64,000 nt of DNA from Flavobacteriales bacterium (GTDB taxonomy: Bacteria; Bacteroidota; Bacteroidia; Flavobacteriales; CAJXXR01), in assembly GCA_025210805.1 (NCBI GenBank), contig JAOAQX010000023.1, forward strand, positions 248,001 through 312,000, read 5' to 3'. The notes below the pieces were generated by a model, which ran no database searches, had not been told where the DNA came from, and worked only from the letters and a program-made list of their open reading frames with translations. Made by a program: the position numbers and the translations under genes. This document shows, in pieces, positions 16,324 through 64,000 of the stretch. Position 1 is the stretch's first letter; each line of letters begins with the position of its first letter.

Positions 16324-18393
16324 TTAATTCAACCTTTTAAAGCCACCATGACATACAGGTCCTTCTAAAAGTTCATCAATATTTCTTGATCCTTTTTCAC
16401 ATTCTGCAATCACTCTAAATACTTCATTGAGCTCATGGAGATATTGATCTACAATTTCCTTTGTATGTGCGGTACTAGAGTATAATAAAGTGGAAGCAAG
16501 ATAATTTTTCTTTAACATTTCTTGTGTGATCAATGTTTTGTATTTCAAAGAGTTTTTTGAAGTAAAAGCAAAACCTGCCAAAGAGTTTAATCCAAATGAA
16601 ATCATATCTAATTTGTTTTCTTCAGCCATTTTTACCCATTTATTTTTTACATACCCACCTATTTCTGTAATGTATTCCCAAGGTTTCTCTCCTCGCATTA
16701 CTTCAAGTGTTTTCAGTGCTGCTGCAGGACCTATTCTTTCTGTCCAGAAAGTAGAACTGATAAAAGTATCTTGAGCAGCTTCCATCACTTCTCTACGTCC
16801 TACCACTGCGGTGAGTGCATAACCATTCGCAATTGTTTTCCCGAAAACGGTCATATCAGGCATCACGTTATATTTCTTAAATAAAGGACCATAAGTCTCT
16901 CTAAAACCAGAAGTACATTCATCAAAAATGAGAACGATATTATTATCAGTTGCAAGTTTTCTTACCTTTTCTAAATATCCTTCTTTTGGTGGTTCGTTTC
17001 TCTGAACTTCCATTTTTATTACTCCAATATCTTGGGATTTCACAAGATTTTCAAGTTCTTCATAATCATTATAAAGAAATGGATAAACACTTCCTTTAAG
17101 ATGAGAAGGAACGCCCGCAGGATTTAAGCCAGGTAGTAAATGCTCATTAAGACCTTCATTATTCCCAAGGTTTGTAGATAAATACCAATCATGCCACCCA
17201 TGGTATCCACAAATAGCGACTTTGTCTTTTCCGCTAGCAGCACGAGCAATTCTAATAGCAATTGCATTAGCTTCACCACCAGTTCTGGCAAATCTTACCA
17301 TGTCTGCCCATGGATTCATTTCCATCAATTCTTCTGCCAAATAAACCTCTTCGGGACAGCTCAATGTGGACATATTCCCTGTATTCACCACATTTCTAAC
17401 AACATTGTCAATGGCTTCGTTTCCATACCCCAAAATATTGGTTCCAATTCCCATAATGGATACATCGGTAAATTTATTTCCGTCTAAATCCCAAATATTA
17501 CAACCTTGTGCTTTAGAATAATAAGAGGGCCAACGCTCGGGTAAAAACATCTCTGGGCGTTTTGAAAGAAGCATCGTTCCTCCAGGAATTAATGTTTTGG
17601 CTTTTTTATAAAGTTCTTGTCCTTTTCCGTGTGTCATGGTATCTTTTTTTAATGATTTGAGATATCCTTCATTTCTAATAATGGTATCATTTAGTGAACT
17701 AATATTTTTGGATTCTAAATATAAGTTTGTGTATTCTTGCCATCCTGCATCTAAACCAAGCTGTTCAATCAGTTTCTCTACAACCACCAAATCTTCTGGT
17801 GTATCCACTGTGAGTCTCACATGGTTATAGTTTACCTCAGATAAATAGGCATCTGATTTAAACAAGGTTTTTCCATAATGCGAGGAATTATTATAAATGA
17901 AAGGCGTTACATGTTCTTTTTCTGATTCTAAAGTAGATTCTTCCCAAGCTTTTACCAAAGCTGAATATTTAAATACTTCTACGTCTTGACCATCTGGATA
18001 GACTTCTTCAAGAGCATTTGAGCCATAGTCTAAGTCATTTTCAATAGTAAAATCAATTACTTTATCAATCAACTCGGCATCAATAATGGGACAATCTGAG
18101 GTGAGACGTACTACATAATCTGGATTTTCACCTTTAAGACATTGATAAAAACGATCCAATACATTGTATAAATCTCCTTGGTAAGTTTCTACTCCTACTT
18201 TTTTTCCAATGTCGAGTATTTCTGAAACCTTCTCTTCATTGGTGGTCGCAATTTTGAGTTTATCAATCCTTTTTGATTTCAAAATTCTTTTTAGATGAAG
18301 CTCTAGAAGAGAAACATTTTGAACTTCTTGTAATATTTTCTCTGGAAAACGGGTGGATCCTATCCTTGCTTGAGTAACCGCTACTATTTTCAT
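16324..18393 (-). CDS. Fusion: SpsF-like CMP-nonulosonate cytidylyltransferase + class III (GSA-type) aminotransferase
   Basis: A 689-residue fusion, started at the ATG 18391-18393 because that gives a 4-base ATGA overlap with the preceding gene; an ATG 9 bases upstream is less likely. Residues 1-240 are an SpsF-type cytidylyltransferase (VAVTQARIGSTRFP, then RLTSDCPIID), which should activate pseudaminic acid with CTP. No separate PseF exists in the block. Residues about 253-689 are a glutamate-1-semialdehyde-aminomutase-like PLP domain with GYHGWHDWY (396-404), D491 in FDECTSGFR and the PLP lysine K519 in VFGKTIANG. Both active sites look intact. The aminotransferase substrate is unknown. 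Internal methionine M253 sits exactly at the domain border. Confidence 0.85.
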   Translation of the reverse strand: MKIVAVTQARIGSTRFPEKILQEVQNVSLLELHLKRILKSKRIDKLKIATTNEEKVSEILDIGKKVGVETYQGDLYNVLDRFYQCLKGENPDYVVRLTSDCPIIDAELIDKVIDFTIENDLDYGSNALEEVYPDGQDVEVFKYSALVKAWEESTLESEKEHVTPFIYNNSSHYGKTLFKSDAYLSEVNYNHVRLTVDTPEDLVVVEKLIEQLGLDAGWQEYTNLYLESKNISSLNDTIIRNEGYLKSLKKDTMTHGKGQELYKKAKTLIPGGTMLLSKRPEMFLPERWPSYYSKAQGCNIWDLDGNKFTDVSIMGIGTNILGYGNEAIDNVVRNVVNTGNMSTLSCPEEVYLAEELMEMNPWADMVRFARTGGEANAIAIRIARAASGKDKVAICGYHGWHDWYLSTNLGNNEGLNEHLLPGLNPAGVPSHLKGSVYPFLYNDYEELENLVKSQDIGVIKMEVQRNEPPKEGYLEKVRKLATDNNIVLIFDECTSGFRETYGPLFKKYNVMPDMTVFGKTIANGYALTAVVGRREVMEAAQDTFISSTFWTERIGPAAALKTLEVMRGEKPWEYITEIGGYVKNKWVKMAEENKLDMISFGLNSLAGFAFTSKNSLKYKTLITQEMLKKNYLASTLLYSSTAHTKEIVDQYLHELNEVFRVIAECEKGSRNIDELLEGPVCHGGFKRLN

Positions 18394-34254: not shown

Positions 34255-35865
34255 ATGAAAAAAGCTTATGCAATAATACTTCTGTTTATATTCAATTTAA
34301 ATCTAAATGCTCAAATAGGTATTGGAACTTCAACACCACATTCATCAGCAAAATTAGATGTAACTTCCACCACACGTGGATTTTTACCAACTAGAATGAC
34401 AACTGCTCAAAGAGACCTCATTAATTCGCCAGCTAGAGGACTTGTCATATTCAATATAACAACGAGATGCTTAGAATTCAATAGGAGCTCGAACCCGAAC
34501 CTTCCAGACTGGGTTAACGTTTGTGGTAATCTTCGAAGTTTTAATAATTGTTCCGTTGCAAATGCTGGAGCGCTACGTGTTGGTGTTCAAGCAACGAATA
34601 TCACTCAAACAATTTCCGCAACATTTACAAGTACCGGTGCAGAAAGTATTACAACAGATACGGTAAATGGTGTCTTTTTTAGATATTCTGGAAATGTAAA
34701 TTCAGGAACACATAATATAGTTCTAACCGCTGTAGGAACTCCTACTACTTCTGGTAATCATACTTATACCATTAGAAAAGATGGAAATACTTGTTCCTTT
34801 TCTGCAACTGTATTAAACCCACTACCCTGTACTACACCAACACCAACAATAACAGGTGCAACGAGTGTCGTTACGGGTAGCTCGATAAACTTATCAGTAG
34901 CTCCAAATAACTATGCAAATTATGTATGGAGCATACAATCAGGTTCAGGAACATTAAATACAACAACAGGAACCACTGTAACTCTAACACCAACAAATGG
35001 TGCAACAGGAAACATTGTAGTACGTGTAGTTGCTACAGGTAATACACCACAACCATGTACTCCTACCACTGGGCAAGATTTACACACCGTTACCATTTCT
35101 CCACCACCACCCTGTACAACACCAACACCAACAATAACAGGTGCAACAAGTGTCGTTACGGGTAGCTCGATAAACTTATCTGTATCGCCAAATAACTATG
35201 CAAATTATGTATGGAGCATACAATCAGGTTCAGGAACATTAAATACAACAACAGGAACCACGGTAACCCTAACACCAACAAATGGTGCAACAGGAAACAT
35301 TGTAGTGCGTGTAGTTGCTACTGGTAATACACCACAACCATGTACTCCTACCACTGGGCAAGATTTACACACCGTTACCATTTCTCAACCACTAACCTTA
35401 ACAGCTTCTGGAAACACCTGTGTATCTGGAGGACAAACTAATTACGAGAAAGCGTACAACTGGTCTGCTAGTGACGTTACTGGTGCAGGAGCAAATACTG
35501 TTACATTCACAAATGTATCGGTTACCCATCAATTCAACAGTTCTTGGACACAATCTTGGACTAGAGTTGTTCCACCAAATGGAACTTATCAAGTAACTAT
35601 CGTAGCAATGTCTGCAACTACAATAACTAATAATGCTAATTATGCATTAAGAGTAATTCATGGTGCTAGAGTTTTCCATACTTTGGCAGCCAATGCTGGA
35701 ATAACACAATCACAGTTACCTTTTACGTTGAATAACAATGTTACATTTACAGCCCCTGGACTGACAGGACATTCAAATCTTTTTGATCTTGCATTTCATG
35801 CAGAAGCAGGAGGAAACCAAACTGCCTGTTGGAATTATAATATTCGATTTACAAAAGTGAACTAA
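34255..35865 (+). CDS. Surface protein with two near-identical 95-residue repeats
   Basis: A 536-residue secreted protein. The signal peptide ends at LNAQ, and the mature start IGIGTSTPHSSAKLDVTSTTRGFLPTRMT is the pattern common to Bacteroidota surface and tail-fibre-like proteins. Two tandem 95-residue Ig/PKD-like repeats follow at about 191-285 and 286-375, each rich in Thr, Ser and Asn and ending in a PQPCTPTTGQDLHTVTIS stretch. The C-terminal 160 residues form another beta-rich domain with two cysteines. A typical T9SS sorting domain is not evident, so the export route is uncertain. Likely an adhesin or surface-layer component, single gene. Confidence 0.65.
   Translation: MKKAYAIILLFIFNLNLNAQIGIGTSTPHSSAKLDVTSTTRGFLPTRMTTAQRDLINSPARGLVIFNITTRCLEFNRSSNPNLPDWVNVCGNLRSFNNCSVANAGALRVGVQATNITQTISATFTSTGAESITTDTVNGVFFRYSGNVNSGTHNIVLTAVGTPTTSGNHTYTIRKDGNTCSFSATVLNPLPCTTPTPTITGATSVVTGSSINLSVAPNNYANYVWSIQSGSGTLNTTTGTTVTLTPTNGATGNIVVRVVATGNTPQPCTPTTGQDLHTVTISPPPPCTTPTPTITGATSVVTGSSINLSVSPNNYANYVWSIQSGSGTLNTTTGTTVTLTPTNGATGNIVVRVVATGNTPQPCTPTTGQDLHTVTISQPLTLTASGNTCVSGGQTNYEKAYNWSASDVTGAGANTVTFTNVSVTHQFNSSWTQSWTRVVPPNGTYQVTIVAMSATTITNNANYALRVIHGARVFHTLAANAGITQSQLPFTLNNNVTFTAPGLTGHSNLFDLAFHAEAGGNQTACWNYNIRFTKVN
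34825..35394 (+). repeat. Tandem direct repeat, 2 x 285 bp
   Basis: Copies begin at 34825 and 35110, exactly 285 bases (95 codons) apart, and are nearly identical at the DNA level, with few substitutions over about 275 bases. The similarity decays after about 35385. In-frame length and low divergence suggest a recent duplication, and the copy number could vary by recombination. Confidence 0.85.
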
Positions 35866-54006: not shown

Positions 54007-54068
54007 CTGCCTTTGATGTTTTCTATCAAAAACAAAGGTGTATAGATCGATATCTATTGAGAAATGAA

Positions 54069-54147
54069 CAACTTTTCCCTACGTGAGTATAAGCTCAATC
54101 AGGTTCGGAGGGTATTTCTCAGTCCTAAACAGACACCCCTAAAGTTT
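54069..54147 (-). promoter_or_regulatory. TPP riboswitch (thi box)
   Basis: On the minus strand the thi-box blocks occur in order: GGGGTGTCTG, CTGAGAAATACCC, CCGAACCTGATT and a terminal ACGTAGGGAA. AACTTT at the 5' end pairs with AAAGTT at the 3' end as P1. It lies in the leader of thiS, 63 bases before the start codon. No terminator hairpin lies between it and thiS, so control by ligand is more likely at translation than at transcription, though this cannot be proved here. Confidence 0.95.
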
Positions 54148-54411
54148 TTGTAAAATTAAGGAATATTTGAGACTTTGATTCATTTTTATAAAAATTCCAA
54201 TGAGGAAGGCTTTTCTTAGTCTTTCTAATAAAAATAGATTAGGATCAATACCTCTATCAAATTACTCGATTATTCACGACTAGGATACTTGCTTATTGAT
54301 AACTTGAATAATCCAAGGGAACATTACAATCAATTGTAAGGCAATTTTATGAATAAATAAATTTGCACGTATCTTTGTTCTCCACTGGTTCATAATCGTT
54401 CATTTTTTTTT
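54148..54411. other. Divergent spacer between the thi leader and the kinase gene
   Basis: A 264-base stretch without an ORF. It holds a 16-base palindrome (TTACAAT-CA-ATTGTAA, 54324-54339) and a plus-strand -7 match TATCTTTG (54370-54377), 34 bases before the kinase start. No -7 match for the thi operon was found on the minus strand between 54148 and about 54210. Confidence 0.5.
54370..54377 (+). promoter_or_regulatory. Candidate -7 element for the histidine kinase gene
   Basis: TATCTTTG matches TAnnTTTG exactly, 34 bases before the kinase start. The nearest TTG at a useful distance lies inside the palindrome at 54334-54336, about 33 bases away, which is too far for a normal -33 element. Confidence 0.4.
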
Positions 54412-57632: not shown

Positions 57633-58829
57633 ATGACACGCACAAAGTTAAGCTTGATACTTTTTGTATTAAGCCTCAGTTCTCATCAAATATTATTTGG
57701 ACAAGTCGGAATCGGAACAACAAATCCACATGCTTCCGCAATAATTGACATTACCTCTTCTGAAAAAGGTTTTCTGCCTCCTAGAATGACCATTATACAA
57801 AGAAATGGCATCCCTAATCCTGAAGAGGGATTGGTCGTTTATTGCAAAAATTGCTGTGTAGAAGGAGCTATTTCATTCTACAATAGTAGTAAATGGGTAA
57901 ATATCACCAATTGTGAAACGTCTGATATAGACGATGATGGAATCCCTAACCATATTGATATCGATGACGACAATGACGGAATTGTAGATGGTATGGAATC
58001 AGGAATTCTTAGTGATCCAGGTTTTGAAACACCTCAAAACCCAAATTTCACAAGCAATGAGTACGAAAACTTTAATGCACAATATTTAAAAAATCCAAGA
58101 ACATGGGAATACCTTAATCATGGAGCTGGGAATCCTTTTGGAGGATTGTTTAAGAATGGAAACTCTTATTCTGGTTCTTCTCCAAATTTATTGACGGCTC
58201 AAGAAGGAGTATATTACACCATTTTTCACTCTGCTGGAACCTATAGAGGAGAAGCCCTTTTCAACAATTTATCCATCAGTATTGTAAACGGAGGAAGGTA
58301 TTTCTTTGGTTTTTCAGCTTACCAGCATCAACTACCTACTGTATTGATAAACGAAGGTTCTATAGTTATTTTTGGAATAAAAACGGGAATGAGCCTACCA
58401 AATTTTGGACTCACCTCATTTACACCGGCAATACTAAACGGTTACCCTGCAGTTTTCACTGAACTAGGTAGATCTTCACTAATAAATAATACCACAGAAT
58501 GGAAAACTTTTGATATAGAATTTACCGCCACTGAGGCCTATGATAGACTACTTATCGTGATTGACGGAAACAATGCCATGATTGGTGTTGACAATTTTAT
58601 TTGCACAAGAGATACTGATGGTGATGGGCTTTTTGATCATCAAGACATTGACTCAGATGCTGACGGATGTTCGGATGCTCAAGAAATTGGACACGGTGTC
58701 TATCAATTTATACATCAAGAAGTTGGACAAAATGGATTGATAGATTCCTTAGAAACGACTATTGATTCTGATATGTATTCTACTCCTCCTAGCAATTTAT
58801 CAGAAGCCTATGATGGAAATTGCCCTTAG
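57633..58829 (+). CDS. Secreted protein with thrombospondin-type-3 (calcium-binding) repeats
   Basis: A 398-residue protein. The signal peptide ends near LFGQVGIG, and the mature start GIGTTNPHASAIIDITSSEKGFLPPRMT repeats the surface-protein pattern seen at 34255. DIDDDGIPNHIDIDDDNDGIVDG and DTDGDGLFDHQDIDSDADG are aspartate-rich TSP3-like calcium-binding repeats that flank a central domain of about 210 residues (FETPQNPNF... to TAWKTF-type NTTEWKTFDIEF). The central domain resembles a carbohydrate-binding or jellyroll fold, but I do not recognise a family. No T9SS sorting domain is evident at the C-terminus. Confidence 0.68.
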   Translation: MTRTKLSLILFVLSLSSHQILFGQVGIGTTNPHASAIIDITSSEKGFLPPRMTIIQRNGIPNPEEGLVVYCKNCCVEGAISFYNSSKWVNITNCETSDIDDDGIPNHIDIDDDNDGIVDGMESGILSDPGFETPQNPNFTSNEYENFNAQYLKNPRTWEYLNHGAGNPFGGLFKNGNSYSGSSPNLLTAQEGVYYTIFHSAGTYRGEALFNNLSISIVNGGRYFFGFSAYQHQLPTVLINEGSIVIFGIKTGMSLPNFGLTSFTPAILNGYPAVFTELGRSSLINNTTEWKTFDIEFTATEAYDRLLIVIDGNNAMIGVDNFICTRDTDGDGLFDHQDIDSDADGCSDAQEIGHGVYQFIHQEVGQNGLIDSLETTIDSDMYSTPPSNLSEAYDGNCP

Positions 58830-58863
58830 AATTTATAGTACTATTAGAAAATATTAAGAATTG

Positions 58864-58895
58864 AAAAGTGAGTGTATAAAACACTCACTTTTTTG
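58864..58895 (+). terminator. Rho-independent terminator
   Basis: AAAAGTGAGTGT (58864-58875) and ACACTCACTTTT (58881-58892) form a perfect 12-base stem with a 5-base loop, followed by a T run. It ends the TSP3-repeat protein gene. Confidence 0.9.
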
Positions 58896-58905
58896 TTTTT
58901 TCAAA

Positions 58906-58928
58906 AAGCTAGGGCATTTTTGCAAATT
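58906..58928 (+). repeat. 23-bp direct repeat, left copy
   Basis: The 23 bases from AAGCTAGGGC to GCAAATT recur exactly at 62989-63011, where they form the 3' end of the desaturase gene. Here the minus strand reads only about nine in-frame codons (YSEFAKMP and stop) before meeting a stop, so it is a remnant of that 3' end and not a gene. Confidence 0.9.
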
Positions 58929-59003
58929 CACTATAACCTTAAAGTTCAGATACTAACTTATGATAACTTTAATATAATTAGACATAATACAACTCCGAAA
59001 TCT

Positions 59004-60809
59004 CTATTTACTGATCACCAACTTATAGGCCATTCGTGTTTTATGAACACCCTCCAGCACTAGAGTATAATATCCATTTTTCAGGAAAGAAATGTCTATC
59101 TCCACCATTTCACTTTGATTAGTGTAGGATTTTGACTGAACAACTCTTCCTGAGGCATCATACACAGATATATTAAAATCTTTTTCATCTACGTTTTCTA
59201 ATGAAACTTTAACAAGATCTGAAGCTGGGTTTGGAGATAAAATACCCGAAGATTTGTCATTTTCCGCAATATCATCTATCCACCCAATAGTCACTTCTAT
59301 TGCAGGCATAAATTGACTTCCGAAACCATGAATAAATCCAAAATCAGAATCTGTTGCACTAAAAAGTGAGGCTTTTGGACTTTGATCCTTAGTGATATCA
59401 GAAGTATAATGTTTGTAATTAAATGCATAATCCCTCTGGTTTCCATACCCCATAAATAATTCAGAATTTGTACTAAAAGCAACACATACTTGATAATGTA
59501 TATTAGGTTGTATTAAGTGATTCATTGGTATATAAACGGAAACATTTTTTTTGTTTTCATTTTCATGCTGAAAAGTGTAAGATCCTGATTGCAGGTGAGT
59601 CCTAGAATTCACTTGCCAGTTTAAAGGGTCCAAATCTAACTCATAGATATTGATATCGGCACTTTTATCTACGATACTCCCTGTTCCATTGAAAGCATTA
59701 AACTTTACATTGTCGACTAAAAATATATTCTCTTTCATAAAAGGAAGTTTAAAATTTATACAGTATTCTGGAGAAGATGTCGATAAATTTCTAAAATACA
59801 AATCTGGATCTAGTTCATCTTCTTCATTTATTGAGCAATAAGACAATTTACTATATGAACTCAAAGTTTGGACATTTCCAATTGACATTTTATCACTAAA
59901 ATGATTATCTGTTTGATCAGAATCCATTGAATCAGATAAAATCGAGTACTCTAGAATATATTGGTCATAATTCTCAAAACCAGCAGAATCACTATAATCA
60001 GGCAATATAAATGAATAGGAAGAATCACTTTTTAGCTGACTTATTACTTGTGATATTTCCTCATAAACAATGAAGCCATTCTTTTTTATTTGAGCCTTTA
60101 ACTGAACATTGCTTATATCATTTTTTCCAACGTTTGCAATATCAGATCCAATCAAAAATTTAAGATGATTAGAATCTTCATACATATAATGCGGCATTTT
60201 GGAATAAGGCAAAGAAGCAGCAAAACCTTTTCTGATAATTAAGTCGTTATTCAGTAATTTATTTCCATACTTATTTCCCATAAACACCTTACAATTTCCA
60301 ACTTTTATTTGGTCAATTAACTCAGCTCCTTTCGACTTAGAAATAAGGAGAACAGGAATCTTAATATCAAATGAAGAAAAATTACCTGTTAAAATACCAT
60401 AAGCCATTGGGTTACCTCTTGCTTTCTTTAATGTTTCAGCTGTGTCAATTACTAAAAGAGCTAGTGCTCCTTCACTTTGAGCACTTAATGCTTTCTGTTC
60501 TATTGAGCAACCTCCTTGATTTACCACAACCGTTTTGTTGTTTATATCTATCTGAAAGGTGTCACATCCTAAAGAATCTGTACCAAGGTTTGAAAAAACC
60601 AAATCACTTGTAATAGCATGTGGACTATAAAATAAGTTTACACTATCACTTGTTCCCCAAACACCTTGTGGTTCACTATACATGATAGAATCGATTTTCT
60701 GTGCAATATTTACGGGCTCCAAGAGGTACAGCTCAGGTTGGGCAAACATTTGAGAAAACACTTGAAAACTAAAGATAAATGCAAAAATAAATAATATATG
60801 TTTTTTCAT
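59004..60809 (-). CDS. T9SS cargo protein with PA (protease-associated) domain
   Basis: A 601-residue secreted protein. The signal peptide is MKKHILFIFAFIFSFQVFSQ. Residues about 95-175 form a PA-like domain (VVVNQGGCSIEQKALSAQSEGALALLVIDTA, then IPVLLISKSKGAELI), a fold that caps or regulates proteases. A CARDB/beta-rich middle part follows, and the C-terminal 80 residues form a T9SS type A sorting domain (ILSPNPASDLVKVSLEN, VYDASGRVVQS, LKNGYYTLVLEG). No catalytic protease motif is seen. It lies inside a 4.1-kb segment bounded by 23-bp repeats. Confidence 0.8.
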   Translation of the reverse strand: MKKHILFIFAFIFSFQVFSQMFAQPELYLLEPVNIAQKIDSIMYSEPQGVWGTSDSVNLFYSPHAITSDLVFSNLGTDSLGCDTFQIDINNKTVVVNQGGCSIEQKALSAQSEGALALLVIDTAETLKKARGNPMAYGILTGNFSSFDIKIPVLLISKSKGAELIDQIKVGNCKVFMGNKYGNKLLNNDLIIRKGFAASLPYSKMPHYMYEDSNHLKFLIGSDIANVGKNDISNVQLKAQIKKNGFIVYEEISQVISQLKSDSSYSFILPDYSDSAGFENYDQYILEYSILSDSMDSDQTDNHFSDKMSIGNVQTLSSYSKLSYCSINEEDELDPDLYFRNLSTSSPEYCINFKLPFMKENIFLVDNVKFNAFNGTGSIVDKSADINIYELDLDPLNWQVNSRTHLQSGSYTFQHENENKKNVSVYIPMNHLIQPNIHYQVCVAFSTNSELFMGYGNQRDYAFNYKHYTSDITKDQSPKASLFSATDSDFGFIHGFGSQFMPAIEVTIGWIDDIAENDKSSGILSPNPASDLVKVSLENVDEKDFNISVYDASGRVVQSKSYTNQSEMVEIDISFLKNGYYTLVLEGVHKTRMAYKLVISK

Positions 60810-60933
60810 AAGTACAAGGTTTATTAATTGTTGATTATCAAGTAAATATACGAAATAATTCTAAATAAAATATTATATTTCACTAATTTCCCTCATTATT
60901 TTAAACAAATTATTCATGATATCTATTGATAAT

Positions 60934-61010
60934 TAATACCGATTACTTGCTAAAATCACCCACTTCTTTCACTGCGTTCATAATTGGCTTTTAGCAATGT
61001 ATCGGCATTA
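60934..61010. repeat. Imperfect inverted repeat, 22-base arms
   Basis: Left arm 60934-60955 (TAATACCGAT-TAC-TTGCTAAAA) and right arm 60989-61010 pair at 18 of 22 positions around a 33-base loop. The inner 9 bases and the outer CCGAT block pair perfectly. It may be a remnant of a small mobile element or a structured RNA. No ORF or flanking duplication is evident. Confidence 0.6.
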
Positions 61011-61083
61011 TACCTATGAGTAAATTAACACCATAAATGGTATAAAATGGAGTCCTCCAAAAAAAGGGAATTAATCATAAACA

Positions 61084-61112
61084 AAAAACCTTCGTATTTC
61101 TCAAGGGTTTTT
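61084..61112 (-). terminator. Probable terminator of the Ycf48-like T9SS gene
   Basis: AAAAACCTT (61084-61092) and AAGGGTTTTT (61103-61112) form a short imperfect stem with an A-rich 5' side, so the minus-strand transcript ends in T residues. It lies about 60 bases past the stop at 61175. Confidence 0.5.
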
Positions 61113-61174
61113 GTATTTCTGCAAGTGCTATTAGTGCTTGTGAAAACTGAATGTAAGAAGCTTAAAAATTCATT

Positions 61175-62836
61175 TTAAGTTTTAATGAATTTTTTACTCA
61201 TACTTTTACCATTCGTTAAATGAAATTGAATTAAATAAATACCTTTTTCTAATTTTGAGATATTTATAACTGATGGATTATTAATTGAATCGTATCGATC
61301 TATATAGTCCACTCTTTTTCCATTAAAATCGAATATTTGAATTTTAGAAATTCCTTGATTATATATGTTTTTTATCAATAGTTCTTGCTTGTTATTTACT
61401 ATTTCAATAAAAGATTCTTCTTTGTCTTCTTCTATTGTAGTTAAGAGTTGAACATAAATAGACTTTGATGTTTTACATCTTTCACTTCCAATACTAAAAG
61501 TATATACTCCAGATACAGCAGGAACAAAACTTTTGTTATTGGATACTAAAACACCATTAAAATACCACTCATAAATACCATAATTTTGACTACAAGAAAG
61601 AGTTCCATTTACATATACTAAAGTTGGGTTGATATTTGGTAACACATATACGGTCGTCGTGTCATATGATATACACCCATTATTATCCGTTCCAGTAACA
61701 ATATAGTTTGTTTCTTGAGAAGGGCTAACTGGATTTGTTGACGTCGTTATAGAGTTATTCCAAGAATAATTCAGAACATTATTTGCTCCTAAGTATGCCG
61801 TATCCCCTACACATATTGAGGTATCATTTGAGGAAATTACATATTGTTGTCCGGAACTACAATCTACACCCTTCTTCAAAATAGTTCCGTTTTCCCCAAC
61901 AGCATATCCTATATTTGAATTAAAAAATTTAACTCTCGCAATTCTATCGGTATGAATATAATCTACTACCCAAGAATTTTGAGTATCACCACCAGTCGTC
62001 GTTTTATAGATTTTACCTTGTGAGGAATTGATCATCTTCCCCCCCATATAGCCATTGTGATTATCTATAAATGTTGATGTAGCATATTGAACATCTTGTC
62101 GGGCTATATTCGTAATATTTGACCAAGTATTTGTTTGGTTATTATATTTGTAATAGCTATTAGAGAAAAAGCCATTTACAAACAAATCACCATTAGGCTT
62201 TTGAGCTAAGTTTGTTGTTTGTTGATTCAAAGCACCAACAGCATGTTCTGTCCAATTCAGCCCATTATTAATTGATTTGTAAACTTTACCATTCCAAGCT
62301 CCAATGAACAAATCACCATTAGCCTGTTGAATTATTTGGTATAATGAAATACCAAAACTCCAAGTCTGTGAATTCCAAGTGAGCCCTCCATCTAATGAAC
62401 GGTAAAACCTTGGAGTGGTTGAATTGGTAACTCCACCGGTAGCAATCAATTCATTTTGAGAAAGAAACTTTACAGAACGAAAATTGACCAATGTAGCGTT
62501 TGGTAATGAGATTGGAGTCCAAGTAGAACCGCCATCTATAGATCTGGCAATAAAACTATTATCTCCAACAGCTATTAATGTGTTACCGTTTTGTACAATA
62601 TCATAAATCCATGTACTATTGTTGCTTCCATTATAAACTATATTCCAATTATTTCCACCATCTACAGTCCTAAAAATACTGGAATTATCACCAGCAACCA
62701 ACACAGTATCTGCAGATACAATGTGTAAGTTTATAAGGAAATTTGAAGTATTACTCTGTAAAACTTGCCAATTTGATTGTGCATTACCTTTCATCATTAG
62801 TATAAATATTAAGGTAATTAGTAAGATTTTCTTCAT
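61175..62836 (-). CDS. T9SS cargo protein with Ycf48-like (BNR-type) repeats
   Basis: A 553-residue secreted protein. The signal peptide ends at GNAQ. The N-terminal 330 residues form a beta-propeller-like series of repeats of the type DGGNNWNIVYNG, DGGSTWTPISLP, DGGLTWNSQTW and NNGLNWTEHAVG, the Ycf48/sialidase (BNR) pattern. An Ig/PKD-like segment follows (CVGDTAYLGANNVLNYSWNNS, DNNGCISYDTTTVYV). The last 75 residues form a T9SS sorting domain (IQIFDFNGKRVDYID, ISKLEKGIYLIQFHLTNGKSMSKKFIK). No catalytic sialidase residues are apparent. A -7 match lies upstream at 62862-62869. Confidence 0.8.
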   Translation of the reverse strand: MKKILLITLIFILMMKGNAQSNWQVLQSNTSNFLINLHIVSADTVLVAGDNSSIFRTVDGGNNWNIVYNGSNNSTWIYDIVQNGNTLIAVGDNSFIARSIDGGSTWTPISLPNATLVNFRSVKFLSQNELIATGGVTNSTTPRFYRSLDGGLTWNSQTWSFGISLYQIIQQANGDLFIGAWNGKVYKSINNGLNWTEHAVGALNQQTTNLAQKPNGDLFVNGFFSNSYYKYNNQTNTWSNITNIARQDVQYATSTFIDNHNGYMGGKMINSSQGKIYKTTTGGDTQNSWVVDYIHTDRIARVKFFNSNIGYAVGENGTILKKGVDCSSGQQYVISSNDTSICVGDTAYLGANNVLNYSWNNSITTSTNPVSPSQETNYIVTGTDNNGCISYDTTTVYVLPNINPTLVYVNGTLSCSQNYGIYEWYFNGVLVSNNKSFVPAVSGVYTFSIGSERCKTSKSIYVQLLTTIEEDKEESFIEIVNNKQELLIKNIYNQGISKIQIFDFNGKRVDYIDRYDSINNPSVINISKLEKGIYLIQFHLTNGKSMSKKFIKT

Positions 62837-62861
62837 TTTAAAGATATTATGAATTAATAAT

Positions 62862-62869
62862 CAAAATTA
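62862..62869 (-). promoter_or_regulatory. Candidate -7 element for the Ycf48-like gene
   Basis: The minus strand reads TAATTTTG, matching TAnnTTTG, 26 bases before the start at 62836. No -33 TTTG is found at 17-23 bases. Confidence 0.4.
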
Positions 62870-62988
62870 CATTTTTTTTATAATTCTATTTTCATAGAAA
62901 ATTCAATTAATTAAACAAACTATGATTAATCGTTTATCCTTTTATTTTACCTCATTTAAGCACAAAAAAAATCTTTATTTTGCGTTAT

Positions 62989-63011
62989 AAGCTAGGGCAT
63001 TTTTGCAAATT
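62989..63011 (+). repeat. 23-bp direct repeat, right copy
   Basis: The same 23 bases as at 58906-58928. Here they overlap the last seven codons and stop of the desaturase gene. The distance between copies is 4083 bases. Confidence 0.9.
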
Positions 63012-64000
63012 TATTGAGGATTTTCCCATGGTTATAAATAGCTCCAAACCATGTTTTTTCACAATGGTAGTTTAAATCAAAATCTTTTGCAGTTTGCTCT
63101 ACTATTTTTGAAAGATCTTTATAATGAACATGGCAAATACCAGGAAAAAGATGATGTTCTATTTGATAATTAAGTCCGCCAACAAACCAAGAAAACACTT
63201 TATTATTAGGCGAAAAATTTGATGTGGTTAATAACTGATGAATTGCCCATGTATTTTCTAAAGGCTCATTCTTATCTGGTAATGGAAACTGAGAAGTAGG
63301 CACTACATGCGCTGGTTGAAAGATGAGACTTAAAATGAGTCCAGCAACTAGGTGTAAACTCAAAAAACAAAGTGCAATAAACCAAGCAGAATATGGCATT
63401 AACAATATAGGTAATAAAAGTGTGACAGAGTAATACATCACTTTTGTTATGATAATTTCGGTCATCAATTTTCTATATTTTTTCCTCCCTTTGATATGAC
63501 CTTTTTCTTTAAACTCATTTATTTGCTTAAATTCTTTTTCAGTAATCCAAGAAATTGTCATAAGACTATAAAGAAACCATGCATAATAATGCTGATAGCT
63601 GTGCATCTTCATCTTTTTACCATGAGGTGAAAACTTCAATATTTTTGTTCTTGATATATCTTCATCCATTCCATAAATATTGGTGTAGGTATGGTGTAGT
63701 TTATTGTGCTGAATATCCCACATGGATACACTTCCTCCTCCTGCCCAGTTTAATGAGTAAGATAAAAAAGTATTTAACTTTTTATTTCTAGAGTATGCTC
63801 CATGACTTGCATCATGCATTACAGAGAGTCCTATTCCAGCTAAGCCTAATCCCATTAATACCCATAGGGAAAAATAAAACCCCGGGTTCGATAAAACAAA
63901 GAAGCTGGAAACAAAAGGCACAAGATAGAGAAGGAACATCACTATCGTTTTAATATACATACTCTTATTTCCATAGCGGTCAATTTGATTTTCTTCAAAA
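62992..64000 (-). CDS. Fatty acid desaturase, 5' end beyond right edge
   Basis: The frame stays open past the internal ATG at 63960 to the window edge, reading EENQIDRYGNKSM upstream of it. This matches the usual desaturase lead-in (rygN before the first helix), so the real start lies outside and at least 335 residues are seen. The three histidine boxes that bind the di-iron site are present: HDASH in VMHDASHGAYS, HNKLHH in IQHNKLHHTYTN and EHH in YQIEHHLFPG. It is a membrane-bound acyl-lipid or acyl-CoA desaturase that introduces double bases-chain unsaturation into lipids using oxygen. Position specificity cannot be read. Confidence 0.9.
   Translation of the reverse strand, partial: FEENQIDRYGNKSMYIKTIVMFLLYLVPFVSSFFVLSNPGFYFSLWVLMGLGLAGIGLSVMHDASHGAYSRNKKLNTFLSYSLNWAGGGSVSMWDIQHNKLHHTYTNIYGMDEDISRTKILKFSPHGKKMKMHSYQHYYAWFLYSLMTISWITEKEFKQINEFKEKGHIKGRKKYRKLMTEIIITKVMYYSVTLLLPILLMPYSAWFIALCFLSLHLVAGLILSLIFQPAHVVPTSQFPLPDKNEPLENTWAIHQLLTTSNFSPNNKVFSWFVGGLNYQIEHHLFPGICHVHYKDLSKIVEQTAKDFDLNYHCEKTWFGAIYNHGKILNKFAKMP

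Follow-up and report, generated by a model that had tools for sequence, protein, structure and literature searches.

A unique 23-bp copy of a desaturase gene end brackets two T9SS cargo genes in a Flavobacteriales genome

How did the last bases of a fatty acid desaturase gene come to stand a second time on the far side of two genes for secreted proteins? The question is raised by a stretch of 64,000 nucleotides (the window) from a Flavobacteriales bacterium (assembly GCA_025210805.1, contig JAOAQX010000023.1, positions 248,001 to 312,000), where an exact 23-bp direct repeat brackets a 4,060-bp segment with two genes encoding predicted cargo of the type IX secretion system (T9SS). Taken alone, this locus is an ordinary rearrangement scar, which is real, unique and non-random. 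With somewhat less than even confidence, we favour a history in which the two-gene segment was inserted between the desaturase gene and a terminator that it shared with its neighbour, and 23 bp were copied in the same one-off event.

The repeat, the desaturase end and the terminator

A preliminary description of the window had proposed the exact repeat and its dissimilar flanks, and both were borne out by direct search. The sequence AAGCTAGGGCATTTTTGCAAATT occurs at 58906-58928 and at 62989-63011 on the same strand, with a start-to-start distance of 4083 bases, and alignment of the flanks showed no similarity past the 23 bases. The right copy (62989..63011, minus strand) is the 3' end of the desaturase gene itself and comprises 17 coding bases, the stop and 3 bases after it, namely two bases of a Lys codon, the codons FAKMP, the stop codon TAG and three bases beyond; instead of the last seven codons described earlier, the repeat thus holds five complete ones (F, A, K, M and P). 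The left copy (58906..58928, minus strand), identified by sequence search, is a non-coding remnant of the same gene end. In the whole genome (3,124,445 bases in 34 contigs), these are the only two places of the 23-mer when up to three mismatches are allowed, which excludes a widespread scattered repeat. None of 100 window shuffles reproduced a 23-bp match, and when the 333-kb contig was simulated 20 times with an order-4 Markov model, no exact direct repeats of at least 21 bp appeared within 0.2-20 kb; therefore, the repeat is not a product of chance.

The desaturase gene (62992..64000, minus strand; PF00487) runs off the window and encodes 361 amino acids in full (G000:C23:310992-312077). Its C-terminus is variable among relatives and stops close to where their desaturases stop, so the gene's own tail, as judged by protein comparison, looks native. 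Beyond the left copy lies a convergent TSP3-type gene (57633..58829, plus strand; 398 amino acids, no Pfam hit), whose hairpin terminator is indeed present beside the repeat as a 13-pair stem at 58863..58893 that also folds on the minus strand. Its minimum free energy is -19.6 kcal/mol on the minus strand (z -5.3) and -19.4 on the plus strand (z -4.9). No strong hairpin is found at the present 3' side of the desaturase gene (-8.8, z -0.2), and the best 40-nucleotide fold is -15.5 beside the remnant versus -4.5 there. The remnant is oriented as a desaturase end would be, and the strong hairpin starts 16 nucleotides past its duplicated stop codon, which supports insertion. Such a one-sided terminator is expected if the desaturase and TSP3 genes once shared the hairpin and the T9SS genes arrived between them, a clue of moderate strength only, since genes without a hairpin are common.

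In the insertion history that we favour, the ancestral desaturase gene would have ended 16 nucleotides before a two-way terminator common to the convergent TSP3 gene, and a fragment with the two T9SS genes would have been joined at the last desaturase codons in a single event that copied 23 bp. One copy would have been kept with the terminator and the other with the gene, and the desaturase would therefore not have been broken. As to the likely chemistry, either the fragment was captured where the DNA had broken with staggered ends that were then filled in, or a polymerase switched template and restarted 23 bp back; a dedicated recombinase would be unnecessary. We infer this order of events and mechanism from an anatomy that insertion with a duplicated site, one of the histories considered in the preliminary description, fits best: the gene end is intact and looks native, the remnant points the same way and lies beside a strong terminator, and the present end has no terminator. 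As no empty site was found in any other genome, insertion is the favoured history and not a proven one. If it took place, genes for secreted proteins can enter a Flavobacteriales-type genome without breaking their neighbours and without a mobile element.

In bacteria, illegitimate insertion or template switching can, in one step, bring in a fragment and duplicate tens of target bases without the aid of an enzyme dedicated to it. The likeness to the present locus lies in an insertion plus a short target copy made without a dedicated enzyme, and for the desaturase locus it is a proposal; literature searches on such events in bacteria gave no direct account of this anatomy. A eukaryotic parallel is provided by transposed genes of Arabidopsis (Woodhouse et al. 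2010, PMC2869330), whose flanks carry short, directly repeated stretches of genes, the repeat sequence being found at the orthologous target site in 13 of 18 cases, and for which those authors propose excision of a circle and reinsertion. What the two systems share is genes enclosed by such repeats; the plant repeats are mostly longer than 30 bp and were examined against a sister species, whereas the present repeat has 23 bp, with no sister genome and no donor site found.

Contents of the bracketed segment

The segment (58929..62988; 4,060 bp) contains two genes on the minus strand: cargo A (59004..60809), which encodes a 601-amino-acid protein with a PA domain and a T9SS type A sorting tail, and cargo B (61175..62836), which encodes a 553-amino-acid protein with Ycf48-like repeats and a T9SS sorting tail. 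Their earlier assignment as T9SS cargo stands, as a Por_Secre_tail domain is found in both open reading frames. The type A C-terminal sorting domain scores above the curated cut-off in both proteins, which marks them as T9SS cargo (TIGR04183, 34.4 and 30.4 bits, cut-off 23; PF18962, 53.4 and 32.2 bits, cut-off 27). Cargo A has a paralogue on contig C1 (39% identical). Both genes are rare in homology searches, which counts in favour of insertion: cargo A homologues at E 1e-10 or better occur in 15 of 395 genomes of the order, this one included and the other 14 weak; a search of 395 genomes of the phylum gave cargo A homologues in 2, again with this one included; and at E 1e-20 cargo B occurs in 1 of the 395 order genomes, namely this one. 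Neither a donor nor a conserved A-B pair was revealed by these searches among the 395 order and 395 phylum genomes.

Between cargo A and cargo B lies a copy (60936..61045) of a dispersed repeat of about 108 bp, which resembles a miniature inverted-repeat transposable element (MITE). It starts with TATACCGATTACTTGC, ends with ACCATAAATGGTATTA and has inner inverted arms; 57 matches are present genome-wide, 28 distinct copies were aligned, and the copy in the window has no Rfam match. The MITE-like repeat was rejected as the cause of the 23-bp repeat because it is located inside the segment and not at its ends.

The preliminary description had marked the segment as a unit that could move, a view that is unsupported. 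According to the list of open reading frames and Pfam searches, the 4,060-bp segment contains no recombinase or transposase genes, and no integrase or relaxase, its contents being the two T9SS genes and the MITE-like repeat. No terminal inverted repeats were found at its ends, where the best inverted match was reached by 0.90 of shuffles, and in lacking both these repeats and a transposase gene it differs from a DDE transposon or insertion sequence. The 23-mer is absent elsewhere in the genome and in the viral collection (0 exact matches in viral contigs). Deletion by recombination between the 23-bp repeats is possible, and there is no evidence for a mobile unit at the desaturase locus.

Gene-end copies elsewhere in the genome

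We read 1,253,220 bases (40% of the genome) in stretches and counted direct repeats of 20-150 bp that had sharp boundaries, a spacing of 0.3-15 kb and no further copy in the sample. Eight pairs were found. In three of them, one copy reaches the 3' end of a gene and the remnant lies downstream, with one or two genes between. Besides the desaturase gene, these involve a gene at C5:119842-120825, which we take from its sequence to be oxidoreductase-like and which has a 37-bp remnant 3.3 kb away, past a 497-amino-acid gene and a GH25 gene (copies at 776-812 and 4066-4102 of L254, G000:C5), as well as the gene for MutS2 (C5:134582-136675), which has a 58-bp remnant 0.7 kb away, past a 190-amino-acid gene (copies at 16582-16639 and 17302-17359 of L254, G000:C5). 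A further pair is a nearly exact 59-bp intergenic direct repeat around a single 434-amino-acid gene without a Pfam match (1035-1093 and 2523-2581 of L168; G000:C1:81035-82581). The remaining four pairs comprise three on contig C6, assigned by eye to a tandem array or to repeats of other kinds, and one 20-bp intergenic pair.

The presence, in 1.25 Mb, of two further genes with a partial 3'-end copy downstream and a gene between supports insertion and suggests a background of such gene-end scars in this genome; this resemblance is the sole lead that raises the locus above the ordinary. For a like-for-like comparison with other genomes, in which uniqueness was judged inside each chunk only, the genome was scanned in 21-kb chunks, and the 63 chunks (1.31 Mb) yielded 19 pairs, of which 5 lie at 3' ends. 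One of these 5 is the MITE-like repeat (contig C7) and one is a tandem array (contig C6). The control from other Bacteroidota (68 loci, 1.34 Mb) gave 4 pairs, with 0 at a 3' end; it consists of those loci longer than 11 kb among 80 that were fetched, which are desaturase neighbourhoods from many genomes. Since this control is not a matched sample, three clean 3'-end cases versus none are suggestive and no proof. With three gene ends in 40% of a genome versus none in a control of similar size, scars of this kind would be a helpful marker of past gene gain. The broader proposal is that accessory genes have entered this genome again and again at the 3' ends of ordinary protein genes, each time duplicating the last tens of bases of the host gene (23 bp for the desaturase, 37 bp for the oxidoreductase and 58 bp for MutS2). 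The insertion would be sequence-independent, sharing no site between cases and encoding no recombinase, and would keep the host gene whole; we consider this proposal improbable.

Competing histories

Several observations weigh against insertion at the desaturase locus. In composition, the segment departs only mildly from the rest: its GC content of 30.6%, where the mean is 33.2%, ranks at the 11th percentile among 415 sampled windows, and its tetranucleotide distance lies at the 93rd percentile, values that do not prove a foreign origin. Gene ends without a hairpin are common, as in an 853-kb sample folds of -8 or lower occur at 76 of 124 convergent and 137 of 281 codirectional gene ends, leaving 48 and 144, respectively, without one. 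Moreover, the terminator belongs to the TSP3 gene, so that a remnant anywhere nearby would sit close to the hairpin. No close relative, and hence no empty site, was found among 40 relatives, the GTDB contig collection and the two genomes that make up the family. The desaturase was searched for in these relatives and in the GTDB collection, where 80 of the 352 loci confirmed were kept, and the best desaturases found are 51-53% identical (51% for the GTDB loci); in the other family genome, the best desaturase is just 33% identical and no orthologue is present. Apart from cargo A, no neighbour genes from the window were found beside the desaturase or cargo A loci of other genomes, those loci taken from the genome searches being only about 4 kb long. 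A further objection comes from MutS2, whose tails were compared with those of the same-family genome G001 and other relatives: the tail of the gene (KIRKDYRK) is like those of relatives, which are rich in lysine, and that of the remnant (KVIMLN) is not. Plain target duplication predicts a foreign gene tail and a native remnant tail, and the apparently foreign remnant tail at MutS2 therefore argues against it. Gene order around MutS2 is not conserved in G001.

The MutS2 locus is better accounted for by a short templated copy or by a double event, which may hold for the desaturase locus as well. Under a short templated copy, the T9SS genes would be old neighbours of the desaturase gene, and repair would have copied 23 bases of its end into the interval that separates cargo A from the TSP3 terminator; no 4-kb insertion would have occurred. 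This explanation, doubtful in our view although the likeliest of the alternatives to insertion, draws on the MutS2 tails and on the presence in the sample of several more short, unique repeat pairs spaced 0.3-15 kb apart, the 59-bp intergenic pair among them. However, given its orientation and its 16-nucleotide spacing from the terminator, the remnant is more readily explained as an ancestral desaturase end than as a sequence that landed at random.

A tandem duplication that took in the desaturase region, with one desaturase copy later lost save for 23 bp, was the other origin considered at the outset and is unlikely. Such duplications are present in this genome, as in the array near C6:69-73 kb; however, no leftover similarity to the desaturase was detected in the 75 bp adjoining the remnant or in the flanks, and at least two further deletions would be required.

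Less likely still is a decayed site-specific element similar to a cis-mobilizable element (CIME), in which the 23 bp would be the attL and attR cores left by an integrase targeting the 3' end of the desaturase gene, and the integrase would have been lost or the element moved in trans. In the review PMC5704250, integrative and mobilizable elements (IMEs) are described as having direct repeats of 8-60 bp and as inserting at the 3' ends of protein genes without disruption, and CIMEs as lacking integration genes. The 23-bp repeat falls within that range and one of its copies holds the undisrupted desaturase end; measured against the same account, the segment differs by having no recombinase or transfer gene and no second site, and by a poorly conserved desaturase end. 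The genome carries eight matches to the tyrosine-recombinase family PF00589, yet none of the eight is on contig C23, and the segment itself is devoid of integrase, relaxase and inverted ends. There is no other 23-mer site in the genome and no match in viral contigs. Because the C-terminus of the desaturase varies between relatives, this gene end is a poor integrase site, and by eye the MutS2 and oxidoreductase repeats have no obvious common motif with the 23-mer. Finally, the idea that the 23 bases arose twice by chance, or were selected for independently at the two places, is dismissed as extremely improbable in view of the shuffles and simulated contigs described above.

Other features were observed around the locus. 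The TSP3 gene is a member of a large paralogous family, with 47 tblastn matches in its own genome, mostly to the N-terminal 120 residues, and tblastn found no homologues of it in the single other genome of the family. Outside the window, a cassette-like array (2700-6300 of L159; G000:C23:182700-186300) is built of intergenic stretches that recur about every 1 kb, with a single small gene after each; the three small genes at C23:182.7-186 kb have no Pfam match above the cut-off, and Pfam identified no immunity or integron family in this region. Within the window, a thiamine pyrophosphate (TPP) riboswitch (RF00059, 72.6 bits; 54059-54150, minus strand) is the only Rfam match and lies far from the repeat, and a tandem 285-bp duplication (96% identical; 34819-35388) is located inside an open reading frame of 536 amino acids with a weak PKD-like match.

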